A stretch of 20,029 nucleotides of DNA from a virus, in IMG/VR virus record IMGVR_UViG_3300050136_000008, positions 1 to 20,029 of that record. One strand, written 5' to 3'. Below are positions 4,274-20,029 of this stretch, piece by piece; positions within the stretch are counted from its first letter, which is position 1; each line of letters starts with the position of its first letter. A program made the translations under genes and the position numbers. Under the pieces are notes generated by a model, which ran no database searches, was not told the DNA's origin, and worked only from the letters and a program-made list of their open reading frames with translations.

Positions 4274-4313
4274 ATCTCATCGACACTCTCTAATCTCGTA
4301 GCCGTTCGTCGCG

Positions 4314-4401
4314 TGCTTATCCGGTTGACACCCAACAGGGTATCACGACCCGGCATTCCTCTACAGGACGCAGAGCACTCTGCGCGATCCGCCGAAGCGG
4401 A
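4314..4401 (-). ncRNA. omega-RNA-like hairpin array in the tnpB-less element
   Basis: On the minus strand this region carries TCCGC-TTCG-GCGGA (4388-4401), then CGCAGAG/CTCTGCG (4369-4384), then GGG-N8-CCC (4338-4351), then GTTG/CAAC (4324-4336). The last three match stems in the tnpB element in order and spacing. The second differs from its partner by a compensating A-T for T-A swap. This supports selection for RNA structure in the absence of a protein. Expression is not shown. Confidence 0.5.
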
Positions 4402-8440: not shown

Positions 8441-8938
8441 TCACTTCTCCATCCATTCGGCAATCGCGCGGTGATCCGCAGCGGTGCCGTCGCTCTTCAA
8501 CATATTGGCGCGCAAACTAATAACGAGCACATTTCCTGGAACATAACCTTTAGAGTTATCACGTCGATCAAGAGAGGCGAGCGCCCATTTATCGCGTGAG
8601 CGAAGATTTTTCCCACGTAAACCACCGTATTGAAGTTCAATATTTAGCACCGGGCAACGCGTCGGAAGAGGCATCAAATCAGCCTCCGTAATATTGAATA
8701 CCAAGTCTCGTTGTTTGGCGCGAGCTTTTGCAGTTTGAAGTAACCGCTTCACAGGATTCGCATACCGCCAAGTCCGACGTGCCTCGCGATGCGCTTCCGT
8801 ATTTCGCGAGTGATAATCTCTCATCGTAATGAGGTGACGACCCGGATGCCGCTCACGATAGCGGACTGCTATCTCTGCATCGGTGAACCGACCGCGCAGT
8901 CGCTCAACTCTCGGAGTTGTCCACTCTTGCAGCGCCAA
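8441..8938 (-). CDS. Free-standing HNH-type endonuclease, 165 aa
   Basis: The C-terminal half carries CPVLNIELQYGG, then ASLDRRDNSKGYVPGNVLVI and SLRANMLKSDGT. This is the phage HNH-like family pattern (CPVLG...SLDRID...GYVPGNV.VIS.RAN..K). The N-terminal ~70 residues are basic (EIAVRYRERHPGRH, VKRLLQTAKARAKQRD) and probably bind DNA. Start is TTG with AGGGAG eight bases upstream. It is inserted between the terminase large subunit and portal, a common place for homing endonucleases in phage packaging modules. Catalytic residues were not confirmed. Confidence 0.75.
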   Translation of the reverse strand: MALQEWTTPRVERLRGRFTDAEIAVRYRERHPGRHLITMRDYHSRNTEAHREARRTWRYANPVKRLLQTAKARAKQRDLVFNITEADLMPLPTRCPVLNIELQYGGLRGKNLRSRDKWALASLDRRDNSKGYVPGNVLVISLRANMLKSDGTAADHRAIAEWMEK

Positions 8939-8998: not shown

Positions 8999-11539
8999 CT
9001 AACGAAGCTTGTCGCCGATGCGACCACTTCGGGCTCCGCCACCCTCCCAGCGCAACCTATATCTAGTTTCGTCGCCGGCATGGTCCTCAGCCTCGGTATT
9101 ACTTGACAGTATACCGTTGGCGTAGAACAGATGCGCGTCAGCAATGGTGAGGTTATAGACTAGCTTTTTCTCTGCGGAGCGCCCAACCGCAACTATATGA
9201 ACAGGTGCGGACTTCCTTGTAGCTATGCGATTTAGCCAAGAACTTGCTCCCGCAAACCGGACACCGCTTCTTAATGCAGCCGACAGCCCCGGCGGCGTAA
9301 GAGCACTGATCCGAGCAATAGAGTTTCGTAGGATGTCGAGTTTCAAAAGAACGCCCACAATAACCGCACGCAAGTTTGCGTCGTGGTGCGCCCGCGAGCA
9401 TCTTTTGGCTGTTGGCCCGGAGAACGTGCTGACCTCTGGGGCTTCTACTCCAGGCCCGCCATGCGGCGACCATGGTGGGTCGCCGGCGCTCAAGATGGTA
9501 TCTCGCGTGCTCTCCGGGTGGTAGGCACTTAAAGTTTTGGAGTACGTTGCGGTCGTGATTGTCATCCTTGTGGTGGACATGCCAACCAGCAGGGATTTTT
9601 CGTCCCGCATCGAGCCATATTTTTCGATGAAGGCTTGTGCCGCCCGCCGCCAAGATAGTACCGTTTGGAATGTAGTAAAGCCGTCCTGGATACCGGCGAT
9701 AAGTGACACCACGATAGATAATGCGCTTGACGCGAGCCATGTGATCCTCTCCTGAGGCGTCATGTAGCACGCTACCTCTGACAGCGCAATGAGGCCGCGT
9801 CCATGTATTTGAATCGGGTGGTGCGGTGTGCCCTCTAATATCCGGCCGTCAGAAAACTTGACAAGCTGTGTTTCGCTCGGCCCTGAGACATAGGATTTCA
9901 GAACTTCGCGAGGGCCAAGTGGGGTATCGACATAACTTCCCGCTTCAACTTCCTCGATCGGGCGCGCCCCATCCGGCGTATCAATCAGTGTGCCGGCCAC
10001 CCAGCAGTCAACGTCATCAATCTTCTTTTCATCGCGCGGCAGCACTGGAACTGTCGCAGCCCACTGCGGACATCGCGACTCGACAATGAAGAGGCCCGGT
10101 GTCTCGCGGTACATGTTCGGCGGCCGCTTGGTGGCCTTGAGCCGCTGGCGTGCCTTCTCCCAGCCTTGCTCGCGGGAGCCGGGACCTTTAACCGCCTTCT
10201 CCCAGATGAGGCCGCGATACTTGATCCCATTTATGATGACCGGCTTCTCGAAGTCCTCGGCTACACACGCGCCGTTCACTTCGTCGAAGATCGCACTATC
10301 GGCTGGGCCGCTCTTGGCCCGGCTCTTGCCGCTCTGGACATCTCGCCAACCGCGCTCGATCTCATATGAGATGATCTTCTTGGTGATGTCGGGAACGGGC
10401 AGCCGCAGACCCTCGTTGCGCTGACCAGTCCATCCGTAGACCTCGCCGATGCGGAACAGGTCGTGCGGCAGCGTCGCCCTGACCGAACCATCCTCAAACA
10501 CGAGGTCAGTTCCATCACTCTCGGCGTAGTAGCCGACCGAGAATGGCTTGGATGAGCCGTGGTCGTATGCGCGCGTGATGCGCCAACCCGGCGGCGGATC
10601 GAAGTCCTTGACGTAGATAGCGTCGCGGCAGTCGGCGAAGATGTCGTCGAACATGCCGCCTGCGGTGATATCCCACGACCCGAAGACCCACGCTCTACGT
10701 TCGGACTCGTTGCGTGCGGCCAAGCTGATGTTCGCGATGTAGTCAGGGTCCGACTTCTTCAGCAGCAAGTTCTCAGCAAGGTCGCAATGGATCACGCGGC
10801 GATCCGGGTCCTTGAGCTTCGTCTTTGGGTTTTCCTTGCCCTCGATCAGCGGCCCGAGAATGGTGCCGTCCCACTTCCCGTCTGGACCGATGCGCGGCCA
10901 GTTGCGGAGATTGTACCGCGACATGACCCAGTTGTGGCCGACGCCGTAGGGGTTAGTCGTTGCCAGCACGCGACGCGGCATGCCCGGCATCGTGGAGCGC
11001 AGGCACGAGAACATCTGGTTGTAGAAGTCCGGCGTCGCCCAACGAGTCAACTCTTCCCAGCATATCCAGGCATAGCTATGGCCAATATACGCGTCGAAGT
11101 CCGACGCCGTTTCGAAGTGCGAGAAGTATAGCCGCTCGCCCTCGGGAAACTCCCAAAAGTATTTGATCTCGTTGTAGAACGCAGTGGGGTGGATTCGCTT
11201 GATCCATTTCTTGCTACGCTCGATCACGTCACGCAGCATCGGATGCGTCTGCCGGAACAGAACGCCGCGCCACTCAGCGCCGAACCCTCGACCGACGTTC
11301 TGGACGAAGTCCATAAGCGCGACATCAGTCTTGCCGCTGCCCCGGTTTCCCTCCAGGAGAACTTCGATAGTATCGCAAGCGAGAAAGATCGTCTGCGATC
11401 CGGGCATCGGCGCCCAAGCCACTTCCTGCTCGTCGCCATCCATGTTAATGACAACTGGGTAGTATTCGCCATTGCGTAGCCGAAACTTGGCAACAGAAGG
11501 CGATGGTGTCTTACCGGGTCGGGTCATTTTCGACCTCAT
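8999..11539 (-). CDS. terL: Terminase large subunit interrupted by an intein
   Basis: TerL is the ATPase motor and nuclease that packages DNA. Walker A is GNRGSGKT (64-71), Walker B is YAWICWEE (156-163) and the coupling motif is TTNP (194-197). The RNase H-like nuclease has AYDHG (D326) and PADSAIFDE. The last nuclease motif is split: DDVD (508-511) is followed by a 303-aa intein, then TEAEDHAGDETRYRLRW. Splicing would join DDVD to TEAEDH, giving a 543-aa protein of normal TerL size. The first ATG is used because GAGGAA precedes it; MTRPGK four codons later is an alternative. The start overlaps the small-subunit stop. Confidence 0.93.
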   Translation of the reverse strand: MRSKMTRPGKTPSPSVAKFRLRNGEYYPVVINMDGDEQEVAWAPMPGSQTIFLACDTIEVLLEGNRGSGKTDVALMDFVQNVGRGFGAEWRGVLFRQTHPMLRDVIERSKKWIKRIHPTAFYNEIKYFWEFPEGERLYFSHFETASDFDAYIGHSYAWICWEELTRWATPDFYNQMFSCLRSTMPGMPRRVLATTNPYGVGHNWVMSRYNLRNWPRIGPDGKWDGTILGPLIEGKENPKTKLKDPDRRVIHCDLAENLLLKKSDPDYIANISLAARNESERRAWVFGSWDITAGGMFDDIFADCRDAIYVKDFDPPPGWRITRAYDHGSSKPFSVGYYAESDGTDLVFEDGSVRATLPHDLFRIGEVYGWTGQRNEGLRLPVPDITKKIISYEIERGWRDVQSGKSRAKSGPADSAIFDEVNGACVAEDFEKPVIINGIKYRGLIWEKAVKGPGSREQGWEKARQRLKATKRPPNMYRETPGLFIVESRCPQWAATVPVLPRDEKKIDDVDCWVAGTLIDTPDGARPIEEVEAGSYVDTPLGPREVLKSYVSGPSETQLVKFSDGRILEGTPHHPIQIHGRGLIALSEVACYMTPQERITWLASSALSIVVSLIAGIQDGFTTFQTVLSWRRAAQAFIEKYGSMRDEKSLLVGMSTTRMTITTATYSKTLSAYHPESTRDTILSAGDPPWSPHGGPGVEAPEVSTFSGPTAKRCSRAHHDANLRAVIVGVLLKLDILRNSIARISALTPPGLSAALRSGVRFAGASSWLNRIATRKSAPVHIVAVGRSAEKKLVYNLTIADAHLFYANGILSSNTEAEDHAGDETRYRLRWEGGGARSGRIGDKLR
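9098..10006 (-). other. Intein in TerL, 303 aa, overlapping an HNH gene in another frame
   Basis: The N-terminal splicing block is CWVAGTLIDTPDGARPIEEV with catalytic Cys1. Block B is GRILEGTPHHPIQIHG (TxxH type). Block F is KLVYNLTIADAHLFYANG and the end is ILSSN followed by Thr as the +1 nucleophile. The penultimate residue is Ser rather than the usual His. The insertion point is inside the nuclease motif DDVD/TEAEDH, a conserved site typical of inteins. Between blocks B and F, where an endonuclease domain would sit, the intein frame is open for about 200 codons but has no recognisable domain. The other frame there encodes an HNH protein. Confidence 0.9.
9153..9740 (-). CDS. HNH endonuclease nested out-of-frame in the intein, 195 aa
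   Basis: The gene has its own ATG with a strong Shine-Dalgarno (AGGAGAGGATCAC) and stops at a TAA that overlaps intein block F. HNH core: LHRKIWLDAGRKIPAGWHVH followed by HKDDNHDRNVLQNFKCLPPG and EHARYH (about residues 37-81). The C-terminal half has cysteine pairs like zinc ribbons (CGYCG, YCSDQC, CPVCG, TCSYSC). It is read in a different frame from the TerL-intein coding frame and the two overlap completely. By family it would nick or cut DNA, probably at intein-free terL alleles. The whole gene fits exactly where an in-frame intein endonuclease domain is usually found. Confidence 0.85.
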   Translation of the reverse strand: MARVKRIIYRGVTYRRYPGRLYYIPNGTILAAGGTSLHRKIWLDAGRKIPAGWHVHHKDDNHDRNVLQNFKCLPPGEHARYHLERRRPTMVAAWRAWSRSPRGQHVLRANSQKMLAGAPRRKLACGYCGRSFETRHPTKLYCSDQCSYAAGAVGCIKKRCPVCGSKFLAKSHSYKEVRTCSYSCGWALRREKASL

Positions 11540-19851: not shown

Positions 19852-19930
19852 GGTGAACTCCCTCCATCCGTTCTGTTTTGCGCGATTGACATACCCGTCG
19901 AACCACGCGTTAGCTTGGTCTCTCGCACCG

Positions 19931-20029
19931 TGCTTATCCGGTTGACACCCACAACCTCTTTATCTTGGGTCATGCGGCCCTCCGGCTTTCGTCTCCACGA
20001 CGCTGAGCACTCAGCGCGAGAATGTTCCG
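19931..20029 (-). mobile_element. Right end of a second tnpB element, cut by the window edge
   Basis: From 19929 to the end of the window, 101 bases match 654-754 exactly: the outer end, the end hairpin, the GGG-N8-CCC and CTGAG/CTCAG stems and the last codons of tnpB. Orientation is the same as the full copy. The flanking sequence differs, so it is a different insertion point. Confidence 0.8.

Follow-up and report, generated by a model that had tools for sequence, protein, structure and literature searches.

A terminase intein of a virus with an HNH endonuclease gene nested out of frame within it, and its recurrence in other viruses

Inteins are currently described as full-length, mini and split forms, with the endonuclease being an in-frame domain of the full-length version (2023 review, PMC10663303). 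The locus considered here raises the question of whether an endonuclease and a splicing domain can be encoded as separate proteins by one and the same stretch of DNA, and if so, what selection maintains in each of the two reading frames. The window, by which we mean the whole stretch of DNA that was analyzed, is a complete viral record of 20,029 bases, in which the gene for the large terminase subunit (terL) contains an intein, while the DNA of the intein in turn contains an HNH endonuclease gene in a different frame (Table 1).

Table 1. Features of the terL locus, with positions counted along the window
Feature	Positions	Strand	Remarks
terL, large terminase subunit	8999-11539	-	single uninterrupted 846-codon ORF, intein inside
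TerL N-extein, C-terminal end ...DDVD	10007-11539	-	empty-site relatives align across the junction DDVD/T
Intein, 303 aa, Cys1 to Asn303	9098-10006	-	TerL aa 512 (Cys) to aa 814 (Asn), then Thr
N-terminal splicing (HINT) part, single-coded	9741-10006	-	predicted fold and pN/pS
Stop-free filler in the intein frame, about residues 90-267	9206-9739	-	translated; predicted disordered; not conserved as protein
C-terminal splicing (HINT) part, blocks F and G, VYNLTIADAHLFYANGILSSN	9098-9205	-	TIGR01443 and AlphaFold
TerL C-extein, first residue Thr (+1 nucleophile), TEAEDHAGDETRY	8999-9097	-	ORF translation and empty-site relatives
Shine-Dalgarno-like AGGAG	9749-9753	-	8 nt upstream of the HNH start codon
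HNH endonuclease gene, 195 aa and TAA	9153-9740	-	ATG 9740, TAA 9153-9155, +2 (= -1) frame relative to terL

The translated ORF (846 aa) matches terminase families (phrog_979 at 2e-28 and phrog_2 at 9e-25), and the insert within it meets the end criteria of a class 1 intein, with Cys1, Asn303 and a Thr at the +1 position. These catalytic ends, namely Cys1, a last Asn/Gln and a +1 Cys/Ser/Thr, are kept in all 67 non-redundant inteins that were delimited, and T60 and H63 of HINT block B are invariant in an alignment of 46 inteins. The N-terminal part matches Hint_2 (PF13403) with an E-value of 9e-5, which is under the Pfam cut-off, and the C-terminal part matches TIGR01443 (intein_Cterm) with 22.1 bits against an NCBI cut-off of 15.6. 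When the PDB was searched with a profile of 46 relatives, the gp41-1 intein was recovered at 4e-19. The AlphaFold model predicts residues 1-88 and 268-303 with a pLDDT of about 97 and the middle linker with about 45-65, and in Foldseek the structured part matched the solved inteins 6bs8, 6qaz and 2lwy with a probability of 1.0. The TerLs of RDJL3, DLP4 and Donnerlittchen have an empty site, with DDVD and T being contiguous. By its ends, its predicted HINT fold and these empty sites the insert is a class 1 intein, and the first-pass annotation, which had been made from the sequence alone, was right to regard the splicing blocks at both ends as intact and to place the intein at exactly 9098-10006 (Cys512 to Asn814); the splicing activity itself is inferred. 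A match to TsaD in the intein frame (E 0.04) was below the cut-off and was taken as noise. A group I intron was rejected because the host frame is open and no match to an Rfam family in the window passed the gathering score.

The start codon of the HNH gene lies 1799 nt downstream of the TerL start and hence in the +2 (equivalent to -1) frame; across the gene the TerL frame is open throughout, and the third frame is interrupted 10 times. The product matches HNH_3 (PF13392) above the gathering score (26.0 versus 24.8 bits) and phrog_15471 at 7e-20, and is predicted to fold into an ordered HNH core with two zinc ribbons C-terminal to it (mean pLDDT of the AlphaFold model, 94). Residues H38, H54, H56, H57, N65, N69 and H78 are invariant in the family, and most cysteines of the zinc ribbons are kept. 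In Foldseek the model comes closest, albeit weakly, to the homing endonuclease I-HmuI; no PDB entry was matched by a profile made from the HNH alignment. The protein thus meets the motif and metal-binding criteria of an HNH homing endonuclease, with cleavage of the intein-less allele being inferred, and the earlier description of an HNH gene in another frame with a Shine-Dalgarno sequence, ATG and stop of its own is confirmed.

We then have to ask whether this arrangement is peculiar to the window. A tblastn search of phage genomes with the HNH found matches beneath the annotated terminase genes of Tetrasphaera phage TJE1, Acinetobacter phage Highwayman and Rhodobacteraceae phage MD07, each with the HNH at +2 and the terminase frame open through it. 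A first scan of viral contigs yielded three loci with an identical layout in all, and a scan with the HNH alignment yielded 80 viral loci (the best 80 of 558 hits) and 28 prokaryotic ones. The two closest relatives of the window intein (L129 and L130) have the nested layout, as does a haloarchaeal plasmid, that of Halobacterium GSL-19, and the hosts of nested cases include a Thermoplasmatales archaeon, Bacteroides, Parabacteroides, Methyloceanibacter, Nitrospiraceae, Simkania, Patescibacteria and Elusimicrobia. The host gene was terL in 10 of the 10 diverse nested loci for which it was tested. In one relative (L017, after position 2770) the N-terminus of a second intein is found in the same TerL, a few residues past the first intein.

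The phase of the HNH was determined by searching profiles of the N- and C-terminal splicing parts, trained on nested loci, in the three forward frames of each locus without assuming openness. Both splicing parts were recovered around the HNH in 89 of 115 loci and both lay at +2 relative to it in 82 of the 89, of which 80 are open end to end and two (L103 and L110) are broken, the viral loci in these counts being from the best 80 of 558 hits. Among the other flanked loci, four have the N part at +1 and the C part at +2, and two have both at +1; all six are broken and fractured, with one terminase ORF ending behind the N part and another opening with the C part. The sole in-frame HNH among the 89 flanked loci resides in a ribonucleotide-reductase intein (L120), and no HNH in frame within a terminase was found among them (viral loci, best 80 of 558 hits). 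The check proposed in the first-pass annotation, a search for related phages with the same dual-frame layout, is answered by the 82 loci at +2 (viral ones again from the best 80 of 558), and homologues with an ordinary in-frame HNH domain, which it had named as a refutation, did not emerge among TerL inteins. The HNH set was gathered with a single motif, G[WYF]H[VI]HH[KIM]D, and of the 558 viral hits the best 80 alone were kept, so that these proportions are valid for this HNH family and not for all TerL inteins. With this qualification, comparison of the sequences indicates that the nested layout is common to about 70 other, mostly distantly related, viruses of bacteria and archaea, always in the same frame.

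The open intein frame had been considered rare by chance, but this does not hold for the window by itself. Under a null model in which synonymous recoding of each HNH follows the codon usage of the respective locus, the window is expected to have only 1.9 stops, and 12% of the recodings are open (p=0.12); the case is made by the comparison of homologues. In 70 non-redundant nested loci the recoding predicts 329 stops in the intein frame, and none is observed, whereas the third frame has 1301 against 1181 expected, and 25 non-nested relatives that served as controls have 218 against 215 (viral loci in all three counts are from the best 80 of 558 hits). Since "nested" was defined in the 70-locus count by openness itself, the zero is true by definition, and it is the expectation, together with the flank-based count, that carries the argument. 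One could still suppose that the HNH lies in an intein whose frame is coincidentally open, or that compensating indels in an assembly have created the layout, and the value for the window alone would permit this. Nevertheless, the layout recurs in one phase in scores of independent assemblies and in complete phage genomes, the deficit of stops is wholesale, and many AT-rich nested loci are individually at p 0.001 or below, so that the homologues refute chance or artefact, whose likelihood we regard as practically negligible. Assembly error is ruled out by the many independent records with the same layout, which also dispose of compensating indels, the other refutation that had been envisaged. 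The expected number of stops per nested gene is 4.7 at +2 versus 16.9 at +1, which makes +2 the cheap phase for this HNH protein and suggests a reason for the use of a single phase.

A frame that is open need not be a frame that is conserved. Computed on the same bases, pN/pS ranges from 0.13 to 0.51 for the HNH frame and from 0.72 to 1.45 for the intein frame; the single-coded N-terminal splicing part gives 0.21-0.63 (0.24-0.48 when the window is compared with its two closest relatives). The differences between close relatives are mostly at third positions of HNH codons, which are the second positions of intein codons. Identity in the intein frame, over the HNH outside its end, hardly differs from identity in the unused third frame, and the similarity of the linker among distant relatives is at the level forced by the HNH (recoding null, z ~0.25). 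The end of the gene behaves differently: in the last 20 codons the closer relatives show host-frame similarity above that expected (z 2.4). The HNH overlaps the C-terminal splicing block by a median of 15 codons across loci, and in the window the initial 16 or so codons of the C-terminal HINT part double as the end of the HNH gene. This overlap is genuine dual coding. It might be argued from these two observations that both frames are selected for their sequence throughout, for instance with the linker forming a folded or regulatory domain of the intein, but elsewhere the host frame is no more alike than the third frame, its pN/pS is around 1, the hydropathy of the linker has no bias, and AlphaFold gives it no confident fold. 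Full functional dual coding is thus already largely refuted, and we hold it to be highly unlikely. The HNH frame is under purifying selection, and the intein frame, apart from the block overlap, is selected only to lack stops. The claim that roughly 590 bp are dual-coding accordingly stands in so far as both frames are open, and falls in so far as amino-acid selection acts only in the HNH frame, the overlap with block F excepted.

The means by which the endonuclease is made can be addressed from the surroundings of its start codon. Shine-Dalgarno sequences of at least 5 nt precede 35% of the HNH starts versus 5% of control ATGs; as the remaining 65% lack one of 5 nt, internal initiation is clear only in a minority of loci and is unexplained in the rest, where the signal is weak. 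The HNH being exactly in the -1 frame of terL at every nested locus also brings to mind -1 ribosomal frameshifting, by which it would be made as a fusion to the N-terminal part of the intein without internal initiation. Upstream of the start, however, the HNH frame is open for a median of just 5 codons, and a slippery heptamer in phase within the reachable stretch is present in only 9 of 68 loci. On account of this short upstream opening and the rarity of phase-correct slippery sites internal initiation is preferred, and with the enrichment of Shine-Dalgarno sequences also speaking against it, frameshifting appears scarcely credible.

The empty-site relatives are consistent with a mobile insert, with homing being inferred from these sequences; Highwayman and BP10 were discarded as a further empty-site pair, as their TerLs are only 27% identical. 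Mobility has to be weighed against a role of the HNH in packaging, in which the terminase would need the protein and its site within terL would serve co-expression rather than homing. HNH proteins are reportedly partners of some terminases (Kala and colleagues, in 2014), all 10 nested host genes tested are terL, and free-standing relatives of this HNH adjoin terminase genes in Yuavirus phages and others. Yet the whole insert is absent from close TerL relatives, the family resembles homing HNHs in its zinc ribbons and in its best, if weak, structural match to I-HmuI, and a related HNH is in frame inside the ribonucleotide-reductase intein; a packaging function is hence unlikely, and we retain homing as the inferred role.

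Other states of the element are also found in relatives. The TerL of vir335 (L135, a Methanomassiliicoccales virus) has, from position 1801, an HNH-free mini-intein (about 131 aa) in the same region of the nuclease domain. Six to nine relatives are fractured (viral loci, best 80 of 558 hits), and a fractured TerL with this HNH family is seen in L045, L060, L077, L104, L105, L114 and Vibrio phage 1.245.O. In Brochothrix phage BL3 (L125, positions 2196-2417) the fractured TerL intein has only a 74-aa HNH remnant, seemingly an endonuclease that decayed once the host frame broke. Nested, split and free states are intermingled in the HNH tree, which implies 15 changes, 5 of them forced by well-supported branches. 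The constant phase fits a single origin followed by losses, and repeated gains could also be favored by the cheaper +2 phase; the number and direction of origins are unresolved.

Several known systems resemble the window in part: 1) Canonical full-length inteins (of the PI-SceI type, or HNH inteins such as that in L120) likewise have HINT blocks at the ends and an endonuclease between B and F, but the window encodes the endonuclease in another frame, as a polypeptide of its own. 2) Fractured genes and split inteins with a free-standing endonuclease, which Dassa and colleagues are said to have described in 2009, also have a separate endonuclease gene between the intein halves, but in the window the host gene is not broken into two ORFs, so that splicing would be in cis. 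The first-pass annotation had correctly set the unbroken frame of 846 codons apart from both of these. 3) In mini-inteins, as in the window, the HINT parts alone are conserved and folded; the window differs by a linker of about 180 aa, whose presence is explained by the HNH gene, of which it is the shadow. 4) Arsenault et al. 2025 (PMC11855218) have published phage methylases with an out-of-frame HNH, in which the host frame is open and a splicing element is absent. Their example from Mycobacterium phage ShiLan (gp65; L121) is, like that of the window, a zinc-finger HNH of about 195 aa at +2 in a host gene whose frame is open, and its authors detected no ribosome-binding site. It differs in the methylase host, in its HNH subfamily (order Zn-HNH-Zn) and in lacking the HINT blocks present in the window; as there is no splicing element, the filler remains in the host protein.

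The out-of-frame HNH without an intein is therefore already published, and there is a real chance that the intein version was described earlier elsewhere. PMC11855218 cites Gosselin et al. 2025 (bioRxiv 2025.01.02.630785) and Gorbalenya 1998 ("Non-canonical inteins") for overlapping reading frames, and these may already contain an intein whose endonuclease is out of frame. We found no such description in the literature, with preprints and most subscription journals being outside the scope of the search.

With considerable confidence we interpret the locus as a splicing-competent terminase intein with a nested, independently translated HNH homing endonuclease. The anatomy, recurrence, phase, stop avoidance, selection on the HNH frame and empty sites are established by sequence comparison, and the folds of both proteins are predictions; splicing, translation and activity of the HNH, cutting of the empty site and homing are inferred, without experiment, from what is established about inteins and homing endonucleases. 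The intein in the nuclease domain of the phage terminase would functionally be a mini-intein, its halves joined by a stop-free stretch of some 180 arbitrary residues, which exists because the same DNA encodes the HNH in the other frame. Ribosomes in the terL frame would produce a precursor, from which splicing yields TerL, and other ribosomes would start inside the gene, at an internal ribosome-binding site in the -1 (+2) frame, and produce the free-standing HNH. The latter may cut intein-less terL alleles, upon which repair would copy in the whole cassette. The endonuclease and the splicing domain would thereby travel as one element with two polypeptides, and selection would retain the HNH protein sequence and a stop-free intein frame.

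The nested layout is a stable and overlooked way to build an intein. Going further, we lean slightly toward viewing the nested out-of-frame intein as a fourth organization beside the full-length, mini and split forms, namely a TerL element that is old and widespread among viruses of bacteria and archaea, with the HNH locked in the -1 frame and selection only purging stops from the intein frame, from which split inteins and free-standing endonucleases were derived by loss of that frame. In either case, an endonuclease and a splicing domain made as separate proteins from one stretch of DNA recur across phyla, including archaea, and the HNH has been missed by annotation even in isolates such as TJE1 and Highwayman. 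The loci are natural test cases for gene overlaps in which the sole constraint on one frame is to stay open, and the nested intein is a possible intermediate between contiguous and fractured inteins. The implied tolerance of about 180 arbitrary residues between the halves of an intein could be useful for protein engineering.

Other features of the window may be recorded here. Directly after terL is a second endonuclease gene, an endonuclease VII-like gene (8441-8938, minus strand; phrog_3322, 9e-29) that overlaps the start of the portal gene. Six 42-nt repeats between 12859 and 17174 are the starts of six related minus-strand genes for small proteins beginning MKDA-GHGS, which constitute a short paralogous family with a common leader and unknown function. 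A TnpB/IS605 OrfB-like gene is present at 695-1750 on the minus strand (PF07282, 8e-22; PF01385), and just outside it is a 31-nt element with two further inverted copies (1765-1795, 4305-4334 and 19923-19953). An exact direct repeat of 101 bp occupies 654-754 and the very end of the record (19929-20029); along with the 31-nt element, it suggests several element ends or a contig that ends within a second copy.
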